NCBI RefSeq assembly: GCF_004519545.1
Contig: NZ_SDKM01000003.1
Span: 124,001-188,000 of the forward strand
From: Nocardioides guangzhouensis
GTDB taxonomy: Bacteria; Actinomycetota; Actinomycetes; Propionibacteriales; Nocardioidaceae
Direction of reading: 5' to 3'
DNA: 64,000 nucleotides
Shown here: piece after piece, positions 791-53,800 of the stretch
Numbering within the stretch: position 1 is the stretch's first letter
Layout of the letters: each line of letters opens with the position of its first letter
The notes under the pieces: model-generated
What the model saw: the letters and a program-made list of their open reading frames with translations, nothing else
Database searches by the model: none
Told to the model about the DNA's origin: nothing
Program-made: the position numbers and the translations under genes

Positions 791-1609
791 ATGAAGCGCA
801 GTCGCCTCCTCCAGGTCGGCGTCGCGGCCTCCGGCCTCGTCGCCGCCTGTCTCGGCGCGGCCTCCGCCGGAGCCGCCGACTCGGACGTCCCGACGTTCCA
901 GGAGTACACCCACCAGGCCTACGTCGACACCGACGGGCAGTACATCGTCAACGGTGACGAGGCCCTGCCGAACACCGGCGAGCTGCGCCAGTACTACGAC
1001 CGGATGACCGCGACGAAGCAGAAGTCCATCCGGGAGGACGGGCTCATCGTCAACACGGTCAACGGCCAGGACGACAAGTGGTCCGCCTCCCAGGCGCTCA
1101 ACCTGACCTACTGCGTGAGCACCAAGTTCGGCACCAACTACGCGGCCGTCGTCAACGCCATGAACCAGGGCGCCTCGCTGTGGGAGAACGCGTCCTCGAA
1201 GGTGAACTTCGTCTACGTCCCCGCCCAGGACGCCAGCTGCACCACCCGCAACAGCTCGGTGCTGTTCTCGGTCGAGCCGACCAACACCCAGCAGTACATC
1301 GCCCGGGCGTTCTTCCCCAGCAGCCCCAAGAGCAGCCGCAACATCCTGGTCAACGCGAAGTCGCTGCAGAACTCCGGCTCCTGGACCCCGGGCAACATCC
1401 TCGGCCACGAGCTCGGCCACACCCTGGGCTTCCGGCACGAGCACACCCGGCCCGAGGCCGGCACCTGCTTCGAGGACAACAACTGGCGTCCGCTGACGCC
1501 GTACGACTCGGTGTCGATCATGCACTACCCGCAGTGCAACGGCGGCTCCAGCAACCTGCAGTTCAGCTCGTACGACGGGCAGGGCGTGCGCGCGCTGTAC
1601 GGCAGCTGA
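791..1609 (+). CDS. secreted zinc metalloprotease (metzincin, M12A/M57-like)
   Basis: 272 residues. The ATG follows a strong AAAGGAG ribosome site at 780-786. An N-terminal signal peptide (basic MKRSR, hydrophobic stretch, AGA cleavage region near residue 30) indicates secretion. The catalytic zinc motif HELGHTLGFRHEH (near residue 203) fits HExxHxxGxxH of metzincins, and a Met-turn SIMHYP follows near residue 239. The HEH extension and SIMHY turn resemble astacin-like and M57 'HEIGH' proteases. Several cysteines suggest disulfides in the exported enzyme. The substrate cannot be read from sequence. A strong hairpin lies just downstream. Confidence 0.85.
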   Translation: MKRSRLLQVGVAASGLVAACLGAASAGAADSDVPTFQEYTHQAYVDTDGQYIVNGDEALPNTGELRQYYDRMTATKQKSIREDGLIVNTVNGQDDKWSASQALNLTYCVSTKFGTNYAAVVNAMNQGASLWENASSKVNFVYVPAQDASCTTRNSSVLFSVEPTNTQQYIARAFFPSSPKSSRNILVNAKSLQNSGSWTPGNILGHELGHTLGFRHEHTRPEAGTCFEDNNWRPLTPYDSVSIMHYPQCNGGSSNLQFSSYDGQGVRALYGS

Positions 1610-1630
1610 CGACCCCCGGCAGGTGACGGC

Positions 1631-1656
1631 GGGCTCCCGGGACCACCCGGGGGCCC
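1631..1656 (+). terminator. intrinsic terminator-like hairpin after the metalloprotease gene
   Basis: An 11-bp G/C stem (GGGCTCCCGGG against CCCGGGGGCCC, one G-T pair) closes on the loop ACCA, 22 nt after the stop codon. There is no clear T-tract, as is common in high-GC actinobacteria. The remaining 1657-1814 gap holds further small self-complementary stretches but no supportable gene. Confidence 0.6.
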
Positions 1657-1814
1657 GTCGTCGTACCGGGGTCCCAGGAGCATGGGCCACTGGTGACCTG
1701 CCCCGGGAAGAGGGGACCGTCGGGACATCCGACGAAAGGCAGTCCCATGAACAGGCTCACGATCCTCGGCGCCGCAGCGGCGCAGGTCACCGTCCCCGGG
1801 TCGGGCCCTCCCGG

Positions 1815-38363: not shown

Positions 38364-38373
38364 GATGGCCCGC

Positions 38374-40149
38374 GTGTCGTCCCAGACCCAGCCGAAGACG
38401 AAGCCGCCGCGCGACCGCGACGAGAGCAGCGGCGGCCGCGTCGTCCTGCTGACCGTGCTCGGCCTGGCCTTCCTGGTCGGGCTGCTGTGGGTCGCGGCGT
38501 ACGCCTTCGCCGGCGAGAAGGTGCCGCGCGGCACGAGCGTCGCCGGGATCGACATCGGCGGCAAGAGCCAGGACGACGCCGTGCAGGCGCTGCAGGACGG
38601 GTTCGCCGACCGGGACGCGATCGACGTCACCGTCGACGGGGAGAACGTGCCGATGACCGCCGAGGCGGCCGGGCTGTCGGTGGACTACCGGGCGACCGTC
38701 GACGAGGCGGGTGCGGAGCGCAGCTGGTCGCCGGGCCGGCTGTGGGACTACTACACCGGTGGCGGCGAGCTGGACCCGGTCGTGTCCGTCGACGAGGACA
38801 CCCTGTCCGCGACCCTCGACCGGATCGACGAGGAGCACGGCACCCCCGCGAAGGAGGGCGACGTCCGGTTCGTCGACGGCGCTGCGCGGCCGGTGTTCGG
38901 GCAGGACGGCGAGGAGGTCGACCGCGACCTCGCCGAGCGTGCCCTGCAGTCGGCGTACGTCGACGACGGGACCGCCGAGCTGGAGCTGGTGACCGCGGAG
39001 CCCGAGATCAGCCGCGACGACGTGCAGGACGCACTCAACGAGTTCGCGAACCCGGCGGTCTCCGGGCCGGTGACGCTGGTCTTCGACAGGACCCGGGTGA
39101 AGCTCCGCCCGGCCGACTACAGCGCGGCGCTCGGGATGAAGGCCGAGGACGGCGCGCTCGCGCCGGACCTCGACGAGACGAAGCTCACCGCGCTGGTCCG
39201 CTCCCGGTTCGCGAGGACCGAGGGCGCGCCGGTCGACGCGACCGTCCGGCTGGTGAACGGCAAGCCCGCGGTGGTGCCGTCCAAGCCCGGCGTCGACTAC
39301 GACCCGAAGGACATCAGCTCGGCGTTCCTGGCGCTGGTGGTCAAGGCACCGGGGGAGCGGCAGATGAACGTCAAGGCGACCGTGAAGGACGCCGGGTTCA
39401 CCACCAGGGACGCGCGCGCCCTGAAGATCACGGAGCAGGTGTCGACGTTCACGACGTACTACCCCTACGCGGAATACCGCAACACCAACATCGGCCGCGC
39501 CGCCGAGCTGGTCAACGGCACCGTGCTGAAGCCGGGCGACACCTTCTCGCTCAACGACGCCGTCGGCGAGAGGACCGCCGAGAACGGCTTCACCAAGGGC
39601 TTCATCATCAGCAACGGGGTCTTCAAGGAGGACTTCGGCGGCGGCGTCTCGCAGATGGCGACGACGACGTTCAACGCGATGTTCTTCGCCGGCCTGAAGG
39701 ACGTCGAGCACAAGCCGCACTCGTTCTACATCGACCGCTACCCGGTCGGTCGGGAGGCGACCGTGGCCTGGGGAGCCGTGGACCTGCGGTTCACCAACGA
39801 CACGCCGTACGGCGTGCTGATCACCGCAAAGGTCACCCCGTCCACCCCGTCGTCGCAGGGCGTGGTGACCGTGTCGATGTACTCCACGAAGTACTGGGAC
39901 ATCACCACCAGGACCGGCAACCGCTACAACTTCACCCAGGAGAAGACCCGCCACCTGTCCGGGCCCGAGTGCGAGCCGAACGACGGGTACGGCGGCTTCG
40001 ACATCAACGTGTGGCGCTACTTCCGCAAGCACGGCTCGTCCGCGCTGGAGCGCACCGAGAAGCTCCACACGACGTACATCCCGTCGGACACGGTGATCTG
40101 CGACTCCGAGAAACGGACCACGCCGCCCTCCCAGGACGCCGGCGACTGA
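38374..40149 (+). CDS. VanW-domain membrane-anchored cell-wall protein
   Basis: About 591 residues. A cytoplasmic basic stretch, one membrane segment (VVLLTVLGLAFLVGLLWVAAYAF), two putative peptidoglycan-binding-like domains (about 55-330), then a VanW domain (about 345-490) with GDTFSLNDAVGERT and EDFGGGVSQMATTTFNAMFFAGL. The extracytoplasmic part probably acts on or binds the wall; VanW function is not established. GTG 38374 is preferred: TAGGAT at 38361-38366 ends 7 nt before it, while ATG 38365 overlaps that box and would lie upstream of the transcript start. Confidence 0.85.
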   Translation: MSSQTQPKTKPPRDRDESSGGRVVLLTVLGLAFLVGLLWVAAYAFAGEKVPRGTSVAGIDIGGKSQDDAVQALQDGFADRDAIDVTVDGENVPMTAEAAGLSVDYRATVDEAGAERSWSPGRLWDYYTGGGELDPVVSVDEDTLSATLDRIDEEHGTPAKEGDVRFVDGAARPVFGQDGEEVDRDLAERALQSAYVDDGTAELELVTAEPEISRDDVQDALNEFANPAVSGPVTLVFDRTRVKLRPADYSAALGMKAEDGALAPDLDETKLTALVRSRFARTEGAPVDATVRLVNGKPAVVPSKPGVDYDPKDISSAFLALVVKAPGERQMNVKATVKDAGFTTRDARALKITEQVSTFTTYYPYAEYRNTNIGRAAELVNGTVLKPGDTFSLNDAVGERTAENGFTKGFIISNGVFKEDFGGGVSQMATTTFNAMFFAGLKDVEHKPHSFYIDRYPVGREATVAWGAVDLRFTNDTPYGVLITAKVTPSTPSSQGVVTVSMYSTKYWDITTRTGNRYNFTQEKTRHLSGPECEPNDGYGGFDINVWRYFRKHGSSALERTEKLHTTYIPSDTVICDSEKRTTPPSQDAGD

Positions 40150-40157
40150 CCCCGACC

Positions 40158-40267
40158 CGGCACATCTTGTGCCGACTCAGCGTGTCCCGACGGTGGTGAC
40201 CCGGCACATCTTGTGCCGACTCAGCGTGTCCCGACGGTGGTGACCCGGCACATGATGTGCCGGGTCA
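40158..40267. repeat. three TGTGCCG palindromes, two in a 44-bp tandem duplication
   Basis: CGGCACA-TCT-TGTGCCG occurs at 40158-40174 and 40202-40218 in an almost exact 44-bp direct repeat. A third, perfect palindrome TGACCCGGCACAT-G-ATGTGCCGGGTCA spans 40241-40267. The block lies between the convergent VanW and aspS genes and probably ends both transcripts. A further copy lies at 58341-58367. Confidence 0.85.
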
Positions 40268-40276
40268 CCGATCGGG

Positions 40277-41614
40277 CTAGGGGGTCAGGCGGTTGAGGTC
40301 CCGGGGGAACAGGGTCACCTCCCGGATGTTGGCCGCCTCGACCAGCCGGGCCACCCAGCGCTCCAGGCCGATCGCGAACCCGCCGTGCGGGGGCATGCCG
40401 TGCCGGAAGCTCTGCAGGTACGCCGCGTACGCCGCCGGGTCCTCGCCGCGGGCGCGGATCGCCGCCTCGTAGTCGGAGATCCGGTGCAGCCGCTGGCCGC
40501 CGGTGACCAGCTCCAGCCCGCGGAAGAGCAGGTCGAAGCTGTTGGACCAGCGCTCGTCGCCGGGCTCCGGGTGCGTGTAGAAGGGTCGCTTGCGCATCGG
40601 GTACCCCTCGACCGCGAGGAAGTCGCTGCCGTGCTCCTCGCGCGCCCAGGCGCCCAGCGCCCGCTCGTGCTCGGGGGCCAGGTCGGGCTCGTCCTCGGGC
40701 GCCCCGACCAGCCGCAGCGCCTCGGAGAAGTGCAGCACCGGGATCTCCTCGGAGACCTCCGGGACCGTGGCCCCGAGCCGCTCGACCGCCGGGCCGGCGT
40801 ACGTGTGGATCCCGGCGACCATGCCGGCCACCACCTCGCGCAGCACCGCCAGCACGTCGCGGTGGTCCTCGACGAAGCCGAGCTCGACGTCGAGCGAGAC
40901 GTACTCCGCGAGGTGCCGCACCGTGTCGTGGGGCTCGGCCCGGAAGACCGGCCCGACCTCGTAGACCCGCTCGAAGACGCCGACCAGCTGCTGCTTGTAG
41001 AACTGCGGGCTCTGGGCGAGGTAGGCCGGCCGGCCGAAGTAGTCGACCTCGAACACGTTCGCGCCGGACTCGGTCGCGGAGGCCACGAACTTCGGGGTCT
41101 GCACCTCGGTGAACCCGAGCCCGTCGAGGGTCGCGCGGAAGCCGCGCAGCGTCGCCGCCGCCAGCTCCCAGCGGGCCCGCTGGGCCGGGTGCCGCCAGGC
41201 CACCGGGGCGTGGTCGAGCAGCGTGGGCAGCGAGGTGTTGAGCGCCGGCCGCCACAGCTCGACCGGCGGGGTCGCCGCCGGCTCGGTCAGCGACCGGATC
41301 GTCGGTGCGGTCACCTCGACCCCGCCGGGCGCGGACGGGTCGGCGGTCAGCGTGCCGACCACGTCGACGGTGGTCTCCTCCGACGGCACCTGCACGGCCG
41401 GGTCCTTGACCACCACCTGCGCCAGCCCGCTGCGGTCGCGGACCACCAGGAAGGTCAGCGCCGCGAGCTCGCGGCGGCGGTGCACCCAGCCCTGGATCCG
41501 GACCTGCCGGCCGGGCGGGGTCTCGGGGAGCGCGGCGCACAGGGTGCGTGGCAGCCCGGTGGTCGAGGAGCGAGCGTCAGCGAGCGTCTCGAGTCCTGGG
41601 TCGTTCGATGTCAT
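40277..41614 (-). CDS. aspS: aspartyl-tRNA synthetase, archaeal/non-discriminating type
   Basis: 445 residues, class II synthetase. N-terminal OB fold (VRIQGWVHRRRELAALTFLVVRDRSG), motif 2 region (YEVGPVFRAEPHDTVRHLAEY) and motif 3 (HGGFAIGLERWVARLVEAANIREVTLFPRD). Length and lack of the GAD insert place it with archaeal-type AspRS, commonly non-discriminating (Asp-tRNA Asp and Asn). Residues 6-16 (PGLETLADARS) are encoded by a dispersed repeat. ATG 41614 is fixed by GGAGGTG 4 nt upstream, itself controlled by a T-box. The call as AspRS rather than AsnRS is by motif resemblance. Confidence 0.88.
   Translation of the reverse strand: MTSNDPGLETLADARSSTTGLPRTLCAALPETPPGRQVRIQGWVHRRRELAALTFLVVRDRSGLAQVVVKDPAVQVPSEETTVDVVGTLTADPSAPGGVEVTAPTIRSLTEPAATPPVELWRPALNTSLPTLLDHAPVAWRHPAQRARWELAAATLRGFRATLDGLGFTEVQTPKFVASATESGANVFEVDYFGRPAYLAQSPQFYKQQLVGVFERVYEVGPVFRAEPHDTVRHLAEYVSLDVELGFVEDHRDVLAVLREVVAGMVAGIHTYAGPAVERLGATVPEVSEEIPVLHFSEALRLVGAPEDEPDLAPEHERALGAWAREEHGSDFLAVEGYPMRKRPFYTHPEPGDERWSNSFDLLFRGLELVTGGQRLHRISDYEAAIRARGEDPAAYAAYLQSFRHGMPPHGGFAIGLERWVARLVEAANIREVTLFPRDLNRLTP
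41561..41596 (-). repeat. dispersed repeat copy inside the 5' coding end of aspS
   Basis: The element GGTCGAGGAGCGAGCGTCAG and its continuation CGAGCGTCTCGAG match the 29261-29582 family. It lies five to six codons into aspS and is read through in frame. Confidence 0.85.
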
Positions 41615-41617
41615 GGT

Positions 41618-41791
41618 CACCTCCAGTTCGGCATGGCAGCCCTGGAGGTGTGGGCGGGGGCAAGGTCGCGGTGCCACCACACCTTCGCCGGGGTGTCCCC
41701 GGCCTCTCGTCGGTCACGTCGTACGCACGGGTGCCCGTGGCTCTGCCGGCCCGGCCGGCAGGAGGGTCGTCAGTCCTCACGCGCTCCGCCG
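41618..41791 (-). promoter_or_regulatory. translational T-box riboswitch in the aspS leader
   Basis: On the minus strand the T-box bulge GTGGCACCGCGA is at 41667-41678. The leader holds two exclusive helices. Antisequestrator: AGGTGTGG (41684-41677) with CCACACCT (41653-41646), bracketing the T-box. Sequestrator: CACCTCCAG (41650-41642) with CTGGAGGTG (41626-41618), which is the aspS Shine-Dalgarno sequence. A possible stem I at 41791-41756 has GAC (Asp) triplets in its loop. Uncharged tRNA would favour the first helix and free the ribosome site. The specifier is not resolved. Confidence 0.75.
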
Positions 41792-41898
41792 CGATCGTAC
41801 GTCGGCCCGCAGGGGGTTGTCGCATCGGATTCGACGTATCACCGACGCCGCTCGGCCCTCCTCCAGTTGACCGGCCGTACCGTGCGTCAGGAGGGACC

Positions 41899-42171
41899 AT
41901 GTGCGTGACCCAGCAGCTCGACCGTGAGTCCGTCCTCGCCGTCACCCGGCTCGAGCTCCTGGTGGCCGCGCCCGACGTCGCCGAGGACGTCCCGACCGAC
42001 GTCCCGCTGGCCCGGGCCGCGGACAGCGGCGCCCTGCACTCGCTGTTCGACCGTCTGGAGTACCGCTACGCGATCTCCGTCCCCGCCGACGTACGGCGCT
42101 CCCTGCGCACCCTCGACGACATCGCGGCGTACGTCGTGGCGCGGGCGCACGCGGTCTGGGGCGGTCGCTGA
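41899..42171 (+). CDS. acyl-carrier-protein-like small protein
   Basis: 90 residues. The middle and end align by eye with the ACP fold: ADSGALHSLFDRLEYRYAIS resembles helix II with a serine where the phosphopantetheine serine sits, and RSLRTLDDIAAYVVARA resembles helix IV. No synthase or ligase gene is adjacent. ATG follows GGAGGGACC. It diverges from the aspS T-box leader. The ACP assignment is by pattern only and may be wrong. Confidence 0.5.
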   Translation: MCVTQQLDRESVLAVTRLELLVAAPDVAEDVPTDVPLARAADSGALHSLFDRLEYRYAISVPADVRRSLRTLDDIAAYVVARAHAVWGGR

Positions 42172-50551: not shown

Positions 50552-50640
50552 GGGCGCCATCCGACCAGCCGTACCCAGGTGCACCCAAGCAGAATCCGAC
50601 TGGCAGGGCGCGGGGCGGGCGCCGTACGCTGTGCGGCACA

Positions 50641-50845
50641 GGCGTTCGAGCCGTCATCAGCGGCGAGCCTCCGGAAGAACGGGACCTCCCAGCGATGGGC
50701 AGGGCCTCACTAGAACCGGACGGGTAGGCCCGTCACAGCCGTCAACGAGTGGTCGCGTCGTACGACGGGACAAGCGGGGTGGTACCGCGGCAGTGATGTC
50801 GTCCTCGTGCCGGAGCACGAACGACGAGCCGCAGGAGAGCCACCG
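50641..50845 (+). promoter_or_regulatory. T-box riboswitch in the ileS leader
   Basis: T-box sequence TGGTACCGCGG is at 50780-50790. A short stem I is closed by CGTTC (50643-50647) and GAACG (50677-50681) and holds an ATC (Ile) triplet at 50656-50658. A candidate promoter TGGCAG-N18-TACGCT (50601-50630) would start transcription just before stem I. This is the usual actinobacterial ileS arrangement, thought to control translation in response to uncharged isoleucine tRNA. Confidence 0.9.
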
Positions 50846-53800
50846 ATGACCTACCCCAAGGTCTCCCACACCGACGCCGGTCAGGTACCGGGCAACCCCG
50901 CCTTCCCGGCGATCGAGGAAGCCGTGCTGGCCTACTGGGAGAAGGACGGCACCTTCCAGGCCAGCGTCGACCAGCGCCCGGCCGGCGAGAACGGCGACAA
51001 CGAGTTCGTCTTCTACGACGGCCCGCCGTTCGCGAACGGCCTGCCGCACTACGGCCACCTGCTCACCGGCTACGTGAAGGACGTCGTGCCGCGCTACCAG
51101 ACGATGCGCGGCAGGCGGGTCGAGCGCCGTTTCGGCTGGGACACCCACGGCCTCCCGGCGGAGCTCGAGGCGATGCGCCTCAACGGCATCAAGACCACCG
51201 ACGAGATCCTCGAGCTCGGCATCGAGAAGTTCAACGAGGCCTGCCGCGCCTCGGTGATGAAGTACACCGGCGAGTGGCGCGACTACGTCACCCGGCAGGC
51301 CCGCTGGGTCGACTTCGACAACGACTACCGCACCATGAACCCCGACTACATGGAGTCGGTGATCTGGGCCTTCAAGCAGCTGCACGAGAAGGGCCTGGTC
51401 TACGAGGGATTCCGGGTGCTGCCCTACTGCTGGAACGACGAGACCCCGCTGTCCAACCACGAGCTGCGGATGGACGACGACGTCTACCAGAACCGCCAGG
51501 ACCCCGCGGTCACCGTCGGCTACCGCATCGAGGGCACCGACGAGTCCGACCCGCTGGCGGGTGTGCTCGCGCTGGTCTGGACGACGACTCCGTGGACGCT
51601 GACGTCGAACCTCGGCGTGATGGTGGGCGAGGACATCGCGTACGTCGTCGTGGAGTCCGACGCGACCGGGACCACCGAGCGCTACCTCATCGCCGAGGCC
51701 CGGCTGCCGGCGTACGTCCGCGAGCTGGGGGAGGAGCCGGAGGTGCGGGGCCGCTACACCGGTGCCGAGCTGGTGGGGCGCACCTACCAGCCACCGTTCT
51801 CCTACTACCTCGGCCACGAGCGCGCCTTCCGGATCGTCGCCGCCTCCGAGTTCGTCACCACCACCGACGGCACCGGACTCGTGCACACCGCCGGCGCGTT
51901 CGGTGAGGCCGACAAGGAGGTCACCGACCGCGAGGGCATCGAGGCGGTCATGCCGGTCGGCAAGGACGGCCGGTTCACCGCGCCGGTCGACGAGTACGCC
52001 GGCATGCAGGTCTTCGACGCGAACCTCCACATCATCGACCACCTCAAAGCCGCCACCCGCGGAGGGGCTGACCGCGGCGCCGTCACCGAGGGAACGGTGC
52101 TGCTGCGCCGCGAGACCTACGACCACTCCTACCCGCACTGCTGGCGCTGCCGCGAGCCCCTGATCTACAAGGGCGTCTCGTCGTGGTTCGTCGAGGTCAC
52201 CGCGTTCAAGCAGCGGATGATCGAGCTCAACCAGCAGATCAACTGGGTGCCGGACCACATCAGGGACGGCCAGTTCGGCAAGTGGCTGGAGAACGCCCGC
52301 GACTGGTCGATCACCCGCAACCGCTTCTGGGGCAGCCCGGTGCCGGTGTGGAAGAGCGACGACCCGGCGTACCCCCGCCTCGACGTCTACGGCTCGTTCG
52401 AGGACCTCGAGCGCGACTTCGGACGGCTACCGCGCAACAAGGACGGCCAGCCCGACCTGCACCGTCCGTACGTCGACGACCTGGTGCGCCCGAACCCCGA
52501 CGACCCGACCGGGAGGTCGATGATGCGCCGGGTCCCCGACGTGCTCGACGTCTGGTTCGACTCGGGCTCGATGTCGTTCGCCCAGGTGCACGTGCCGTTC
52601 GAGAACGACGAGTGGTTCCTGCATCACTTCCCGGCCGACTTCATCGTCGAGTACATCGGCCAGACCCGCGGCTGGTTCTACACCCTGCACATCCTCGCCA
52701 GCGCGCTGTTCGACCGGCCCGCGTTCGAGAACTGCATCAGCCACGGCATCGTGCTCGGCTCCGACGGCAACAAGATGTCGAAGTCGCTGCGCAACTACCC
52801 CGACGTGCGCGAGGTCTTCGACCGCGACGGCGCCGACGCGATGCGCTGGTTCCTCATGGCTTCGCCGATCCTGCGCGGCGGCAACCTGATCGTCACCGAG
52901 CAGGGCATCCGGGACTCCGTGCGCCAGGTGATGATCCCGCTGTGGAACAGCTGGTACTTCTTCAGCCTCTACGCCAACGCCGCCGGCGGCCCCGGCCAGG
53001 GGTACGACGCGCGGTGGTCGACGGCGTCCACTGACCCGCTCGACCGCTACCTGCTCGCCAAGACCCGGCAGTTCGTCGACGCGATGACCCGGCAGATGGA
53101 CCACTACGAGGTCGCGAACGCCTGCGACTCGACGCGGGCGTTCCTCGACGTGCTCACGAACTGGTACATCCGCCGCTCCCGCGAGCGGTTCTGGTCGACC
53201 GGTGGCGAGGTCGACACCGCGGCGTTCGACACGCTCTACACGGTGCTCGACGTCGTGTGCCGGGTGACGGCGCCGCTGCTGCCGCTCACCACCGAGGAGG
53301 TCTGGCGCGGCCTGACCGGCGGCCGGTCCGTGCACCTCGCCGACTGGCCCGATGCCGGCGACCTGCCGGCCGACGACGCTCTGGTGGCCGCGATGGACCA
53401 GGTGCGCGACGTCTGCTCGGCCGCCTCGGCGCTGCGCAAGGCGGCCGGCCTGCGCAACCGGCTGCCGCTGGCGGGGCTCACGGTCGTCGTCGACGGCCCC
53501 GACGCGCTGACGGGCTTCGAGGCGATCGTCGCCGACGAGCTCAATGTGAAGTCGGTCCTGCTGCTCGACCTCGCCGCCCCGGAAGCTGCGTCGTACGGCG
53601 TGTCCCAGCGGCTCACGGTCAACGCCCGCGCCGCGGGCCCGCGCCTGGGCCGCGACGTGCAGGTGGCGATCAAGGGCTCGAAGTCGGGTGACTGGTCGGT
53701 GGCCGCGGACGGCACGGTGACCTCCGGCGGGCTGGCGCTCGAGGAGGGCGAGTACACCCTGGAGACCGTCGCCGCCGACTCCGTCGGCGACTCGGCGACC

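Follow-up and report, generated by a model that had tools for sequence, protein, structure and literature searches.

The gene aspS2 lies on the minus strand of the window, the 64,000-nucleotide stretch of Nocardioides guangzhouensis DNA that was analysed, with its ATG at 41614-41612 (Table 1). Its product scores 523.7 bits against the NCBIfam model NF003483 (cut-off 353), 329.9 bits against the other archaeal-type model, TIGR00458, which is under that model's cut-off of 368.4, and 160.3 bits against the bacterial aspS model NF001750 (cut-off 443). In the alignment, a His and a Pro are common to the window AspRS2 and the AspRS2 of T. thermophilus, the corresponding residues of the T. kodakarensis enzyme being Trp and Lys, a difference that we take to mark non-discriminating enzymes. 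The T. thermophilus protein is also the best solved relative of the aspS2 product (PDB 1n9w, E 1.8e-107), and the titles of 1n9w and 3kfu call it non-discriminating and archaeal-type. From the signature residues together with the family score, the window enzyme is predicted to be non-discriminating as well. A bacterial-type AspRS is encoded on another contig (C35) of the same genome (TIGR00459, 686.8 bits), and the window gene is therefore a second AspRS. The first-pass annotation, made from the sequence of the window alone, had placed a T-box upstream of aspS; covariation and conservation bear out the T-box, but the gene had been misidentified, being the archaeal-type aspS2, with the housekeeping aspS elsewhere in the genome. 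A second AspRS is reported from a further 15 genera, 10 of them lacking AsnRS and mainly Actinomycetales, with no role given in the passage concerned (PMC4206432). Downstream, a strong inverted repeat with a sub-threshold mir-789 match (40191-40270) separates aspS2 from a converging open reading frame that is VanW-like by reading (38365-40149); the repeat is possibly a shared terminator or a repeat element.

The leader of aspS2 occupies about 41614-41787 on the minus strand and comprises, from 5' to 3', a Stem I hairpin, a second hairpin (P1b), a IIA-like element, GAGAG, Stem III, GA-A, the antisequestrator, an anti-Shine-Dalgarno (anti-SD) and the Shine-Dalgarno (SD) stretch. The 8-bp helix that had been drawn around the T-box bulge can be read directly as helix A1, in which AGGTGTGG (41684-41677) pairs with CCACACCT (41653-41646) and encloses TGGCACCGCG; helix A2 is formed by 41669-41667 with 41656-41654, and as RNA the antisequestrator reads AGGUGUGG-UGGCACC-GCG...CGC-CCACACCU. 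The first-pass annotation was also correct in that the anti-SD CACCTCCAG (41650-41642) is the exact 9-nt complement of the SD CTGGAGGTG (41626-41618), and in that only one pairing can form at a time, since A1 and the SD/anti-SD pairing overlap at 41650-41646 and are mutually exclusive. When the mononucleotides of the 81-nt region were shuffled 20,000 times, an exact copy of the anti-SD 9-mer appeared in 20 of the shuffles, and the comparative evidence for the pairing, given below, is stronger than this test. An outer helix around Stem I and P1b (P0) is weak in the window leader (score 14), two registers fit the Stem IIB pseudoknot, and the AGUA motif, our stand-in for the Stem II S-turn, is absent from this leader. 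A consensus scan gave no sigma-70 site for the leader promoter, and the candidate -10 hexamer is for this reason by eye alone; similar hexamers stand at about the same position in a number of relatives.

Table 1. Features of aspS2 and its leader, as positions in the window.
Feature	Position	Strand	Remarks
aspS2	40277..41614	minus	archaeal-type short AspRS, 445 aa, predicted non-discriminating
candidate -10 hexamer TACGAT of leader promoter	41794..41799	minus	by eye; low weight
ultrashort Stem I hairpin GAGG-ACUGACGAC-CCUC	41762..41778	minus	4 bp, 9-nt loop; specifier in apical loop
specifier codon GAC (Asp), in UGAC then purine	41769..41771	minus	sequence; tRNA-Asp anticodon GUC, A37
second hairpin P1b (CUGCCGGC/GCCGGCAG)	41743..41761	minus	adjoins Stem I; own-versus-swapped pairing
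Stem IIA/B-like element	41704..41730	minus	IIA: 41727-41729 with 41717-41719, then CCGACGAGAGG
Stem III GCCGGGG-ACA-CCCCGGC	41687..41703	minus	covariation; own-versus-swapped pairing
antisequestrator	41646..41684	minus	helix A1 + 7-nt bulge + helix A2
T-box bulge UGGCACC	41670..41676	minus	UGGC can pair with GCCA of tRNA-Asp (G73)
anti-Shine-Dalgarno CACCUCCAG	41642..41650	minus	shares five bases with A1
Shine-Dalgarno stretch CUGGAGGUG	41618..41626	minus	9 bp complementary to anti-SD; three bases before AUG

For comparison we took the best 80 of 281 relatives from a scan of genome contigs, dropped one (L047, which has 237 nt only, lacks the motif and was left out of the leader alignments) and added the window, giving 80 leaders. 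The motif TGG[CT]AC[AC]GCG stands just upstream of the gene in 79 of the 80 relatives. The leaders divide into those with a long Stem I (23, and L029) and those with a short one, and GAC occupies the specifier place in all 80 of them, in 23 long and 55 short leaders by pattern and in two by eye (L029, with GAAGAC and one extra base, and L046, with UGAC in a poorer hairpin). Among the long canonical Stem I leaders, GAA-GAC-N-CUC or a close variant is present in 23 of 23 under a pattern that leaves the codon free; the count of 55 short leaders is partly circular because there the pattern itself requires TGAC. In five leaders (L034, L036, L038, L043 and L060) the pattern picked another TGAC hairpin, and the homologous hairpin is there as well. 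In the loop of the 41 ultrashort leaders, which were selected by TGAC, the base after UGAC is a purine (23 G, 18 A). The tRNA-Asp of N. guangzhouensis has anticodon GUC, A37, G73 and an encoded CCA, and the discriminator bases of its tRNA-Asn and tRNA-Ile are G73 and A73; thus UGGC in the bulge at aspS2 is set against G73, and UGGU at ileS, in the same window, against A73.

Two leaders that the covariance model found outside aspS2 serve as controls of the register. One (L167 in genome G308, about 1466-1700, minus strand) is a T-box with a long Stem I that reads UCC (Ser) in the same register before a serS (TIGR00414, 362.6 bits); that genome has another, higher-scoring serS (443.3 bits), so this T-box, too, is on a second synthetase. 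The other (L158 in G219, about 1435-1594, minus strand) is an ultrashort GAC T-box upstream of a bacterial-type aspS (NF001750, 662.5 bits on a partial sequence).

These observations decide between the two amino acids that the first-pass annotation had offered, aspartate or asparagine. That the element senses tRNA-Asn is suggested by the NCBIfam name of the aspS2 family, aspartate--tRNA(Asn) ligase, and by the gene content of N. guangzhouensis, in which GatA was found and no AsnRS over cut-off in the organism's own assembly, the best match of the asnS model being aspS2 itself (177.4 of 342.6 bits). UGGC in the bulge, moreover, fits G73 of tRNA-Asn equally, and T-box control of tRNA-dependent Asn formation reportedly occurs in Clostridium acetobutylicum, according to titles by Saad. 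We nevertheless rejected asparagine specificity, which the gene name and GatCAB had raised, because the codon in register is GAC, not AAC, in 80 of 80 leaders (55 of which presuppose TGAC, with two read by eye); the UCC before serS and the ultrashort GAC element before a bacterial-type aspS also speak against it. Sensing of tRNA-Asn is accordingly improbable, and the specifier, as read from the sequence, is aspartate.

The secondary structure was assessed in an ultrashort alignment of those 41 of the 80 leaders (40 distinct) that have both a TGAC hairpin and the IIA/B motif. Of the cells in the proposed structure 98.0% are paired, and 10 of 25 pairs have changed on both sides, one of these in an artefact helix; 0 of 500 shuffles came up to the paired percentage, the both-side count or the covariation score. 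The number of further pair types was unexceptional (reached by 72 of 500), and versions of the structure slid along the alignment gave 39-57% of cells paired. The artefact, one of six helices (columns 116 with 120, one pair, 58.3% paired), stems from gapped Stem III columns and is without weight, which leaves 9 of 24 pairs. Over the 3' domain of all 80 leaders (78 distinct), pairing holds in 97.4% of cells, and both-side changes are seen in 9 of 17 pairs. By helix, such changes affect 3 of 4 pairs of the Stem I hairpin (99.4% of cells paired, 41 leaders), 4 of the 6 counted pairs of Stem III (41 ultrashort leaders) and 4 of 8 pairs of A1 (97.6% paired, 80 leaders); in 5 of 40 distinct rows one pair of IIA is U-A instead of C-G, and A2 is neutral as evidence because it is invariant across the 80 leaders. 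Pairing each strand with its own partner scored higher than swapped partners for P1b (13.75 versus 10.59, sd 0.45, 34 leaders), Stem III (19.65 versus 13.93, sd 0.33, 77 leaders) and P0 (17.54 versus 14.31, sd 0.42, or 17.94 versus 15.98, sd 0.38, with the whole 3' segment; 41 leaders each). In the ultrashort alignment Stem III is flanked by GAGAG on its 5' side and GAA or AAA on its 3' side, and conserved purines on the flanks of Stem III are described for T-boxes in the portion of the literature covered (PMC7583486). The helices thus show the covariation by which the first-pass annotation had proposed to judge them, and its T-box reading stands.

The competing SD/anti-SD helix also covaries. 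Over 40 distinct ultrashort rows, 83.3% of its cells are paired. Both-side changes occur in 3 of 9 pairs, a count that was reached by 5 of 500 shuffles; the covariation score was reached by 0 of 500 and the number of further pair types by 21 of 500. Of the 40 distinct rows, 7 form the outermost pair (41650 with 41618) and 26 the next, so that about 7 bp are kept in most relatives. Own partners again outscored swapped ones (20.89 versus 18.48, sd 0.26, in 80 leaders; 22.00 versus 20.84, sd 0.24, in the 41 ultrashort ones). An exact complement of at least 6 nt to the SD core stands at the expected place in 46 of 56 short-class leaders. It is missing there in the other 10 of the short class and, in the long class, in 14 of 24 leaders; the OFF state of these leaders is therefore different or absent. 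Six Streptosporangiaceae leaders (L064, L069, L071, L073, L075 and L081) are without an SD complement at the usual place. By eye, AUCACCAC in these six is almost complementary to GUGAUGAU around the start codon, and AAGGGA, downstream, has its complement in the A2 loop UUCCCUU; their OFF state may mask the start codon instead.

To determine how closely the element follows aspS2, we combined a covariance model (R1) with protein searches that used residues 2-445 of AspRS2 as the query. Within the N. guangzhouensis genome R1 gave one strong match, the window element (E 3.5e-22), the next being at 0.137. Across 100 genomes of the family, AspRS2 is present in 25 (E 1e-60), and strong R1 matches (E 1.7e-12 or lower) fall at 24 places in 23 genomes, with five more between E 0.002 and 0.01. 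The conservation in other Nocardioidaceae that the first-pass annotation had suggested looking for is found in the family and beyond it: the element lies directly 5' of aspS2 in 22 of the 25 aspS2 genomes, and was not found in the upstream DNA of the gene in the other three (G022, with 237 bases to the contig end, G025 and G030). A second copy lies near a contig end in G027. In a class sample of 296 genomes, AspRS2 was found in 27 (E 1e-90), R1 matched in 20 (E 1e-5 or lower), and both were found in 18. In one genome the aspS2 next to the T-box breaks off at roughly codon 95 and continues about 3 kb away, with the T-box still adjoining it (L160, G106:C895). On this comparative evidence the same switch, in several sizes, stands before aspS2 in many actinobacteria.

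The nine AspRS2 genomes of the class sample without the element (G188, G209, G237, G280, G288, G297, G320, G344 and G365) all belong to a single family, f37, of which only G255 has it. None of the nine has a match to bacterial-type aspS (E 1e-60), and AspRS2 is therefore no spare in them; a bacterial-type AspRS was found in G000 and G255, the two tested of the 18 element-bearing aspS2 genomes. In the 296-genome sample the element is thus missing where the archaeal-type enzyme is apparently the only AspRS. It is not confined to spare enzymes, since in G219 it precedes a bacterial-type aspS; no AspRS2 was found in that genome, and the element there looks as though it had been transferred to the other kind of AspRS gene.

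Conservation of this kind could reflect recent common descent, with the leader a T-box relic or an RNA that no longer switches, and likely relics do exist among the relatives. One genome (G016; L152, G016:C294) has kept the element with no AspRS2 match at E 1e-60, its neighbouring frames looking broken by eye, and L040 has neither a usual SD nor a readable frame from the match start (it breaks after 23 residues). A relic would, however, be hard to reconcile with both-side changes in Stem I, Stem III, A1 and the SD/anti-SD helix, or with an element adjoining aspS2 in 22 of 25 genomes, and we regard this reading as very improbable for the window leader.

The pairing alternatives differ in predicted stability. 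Folded alone, the 95-nt 3' domain adopts the sequestrator at -39.5 kcal/mol, with every base of the SD stretch paired at a probability above 0.99, versus -25.3 kcal/mol when the antisequestrator is imposed; the default state of the window leader is therefore predicted to be OFF. Control through termination of transcription, instead of at the ribosome site, has in its favour that the translational class is the smaller one according to the part of PMC7583486 covered here, but no terminator-like site occurs in 41600-41900 and the SD itself lies within the competing helix, so that transcriptional control was rejected and seems scarcely credible.

We therefore consider it highly probable that this leader is a T-box riboswitch of the translational class with specificity for tRNA-Asp, and its predicted role is that of a sensor. 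When uncharged tRNA-Asp is absent, the sequestrator of CACCUCCAG with CUGGAGGUG would form and close the aspS2 ribosome site. A tRNA-Asp without aspartate would read UGAC in the Stem I hairpin with its anticodon GUC, A37 perhaps adding a fourth pair, and its free GCCA end would pair with UGGC in the bulge. Binding would stabilise the antisequestrator, which would take up the anti-SD and free the ribosome site, a switch that charged tRNA-Asp should be unable to trigger. The AspRS2 thus made would then help to restore charging. The weakest step in this scheme is the last, in which AspRS2 would serve as a spare enzyme once charging of tRNA-Asp fails; the contrast within f37 and the second serS speak for it, and AspRS2 could also have a part in the supply of Asp-tRNA-Asn.

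The size of the element was compared with the AspRS2 phylogeny. On a tree of 80 AspRS2 proteins (quick method, midpoint root), in which 79 rows were labelled and L040 was left out, long and short Stem I require at least four changes. Catellatospora (short) is sister to Micromonospora (long) within an otherwise long clade, and Intrasporangium (short), whose leader, counted from Stem I until shortly after the antisequestrator, measures about 105 nt, falls beside a long form; the labels rest on patterns and reading, and another loop fold is possible in Catellatospora. The AGUA motif is present in 9 of 23 long leaders and 1 of 55 short ones. The simplest reading of the midpoint-rooted tree suggests that Stem I was shortened repeatedly in the AspRS2 lineage.

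Going beyond this locus, we tentatively propose, with somewhat more doubt than conviction, that actinobacterial spare synthetases such as AspRS2 and the second SerRS are kept off, that T-boxes switch them on only when the housekeeping enzyme fails, for example under a neighbour's inhibitor of AspRS or SerRS, and that the T-box of the AspRS2 lineage lost distal Stem I on several independent occasions, often together with Stem II, reaching about 105 nt in Intrasporangium. If true, this would yield a T-box of very small size and a series, made by nature, for asking how much of the aptamer can be spared. As gene, codon and kind of switch stay the same in leaders of very different size, the contributions of Stem I and Stem II become directly testable. 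In the passages covered, the T-boxes of Actinobacteria are described on ileS, a set that would be enlarged by an aspartate T-box occurring across many actinobacterial families. It would also give a regulatory clue to the second AspRS, a gene that would be tuned to tRNA-Asp though NCBIfam names tRNA-Asn.

Several sources indicate how these leaders relate to the T-boxes already catalogued. The Rfam T-box model, a search with which had been suggested in the first-pass annotation, gave no match in the window leader, even at E 5. Among 13 relatives tested, RF00230 matched eight (E 3.2e-9 to 0.028, all under the gathering score of 93 bits), each with a long Stem I and aligned over the whole model, and gave no T-box match in the other five, including one long-class leader (L049). 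The window contains a second T-box at 50636-50809 on the plus strand, upstream of ileS (ATG at 50846), which is of the known actinobacterial kind, with bulge UGGU and loop UCAUCA, and which RF00230 finds at E 1.2e-5 and 34.4 bits (gathering 93). As the model misses the ultrashort forms and scores even this ileS T-box low, we rejected Rfam as the sole arbiter. Translational T-boxes are described upstream of ileS in several Actinobacteria (Seliverstov 2005, PMC1262725), and 32 T-boxes were counted in 12 of 19 genomes classed as Actinobacteria, with at least 18 mentioned for Symbiobacterium (Wels 2008, PMC2494555). In the literature passages covered, the actinobacterial T-boxes named are on ileS, which agrees with the impression of the first-pass annotation that they are mainly found there. 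The literature searched, mostly freely accessible papers, contained no title on an actinobacterial aspS T-box. TBDB applied a class II model to reference genomes of Actinobacteria (PMC7778990, seen in part), and some of these leaders may therefore already be listed there.

Compared with the T-box leader represented by RF00230, the window element has its Stem I reduced to one hairpin. Work by Saad from 2012 and 2013 is said to concern T-box control of tRNA-dependent Asn formation in C. acetobutylicum through a two-codon T-box. That system is alike in linking a T-box to an organism with additional AspRS genes, but it involves asparagine and tRNA-Asn with two codons, whereas the window element has GAC and predicted translational control. 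The window enzyme differs from the AspRS2 of T. thermophilus in its setting, an actinobacterial genome that carries two AspRS genes and has no AsnRS over cut-off. There is also a close likeness to the translational T-box of N. farcinica ileS, which, in the portion of PMC10651847 covered, shares the shortened Stem I, the SD sequestrator set against an antisequestrator, the UGGN bulge and Stem III. The N. farcinica element has a Stem II with an S-turn and a Stem IIA/B pseudoknot (same source and portion), whereas the window leader has a second hairpin beside Stem I and no AGUA; and where the former combines an Ile specifier with UGGU, the latter combines an Asp specifier with UGGC before an archaeal-type second AspRS.
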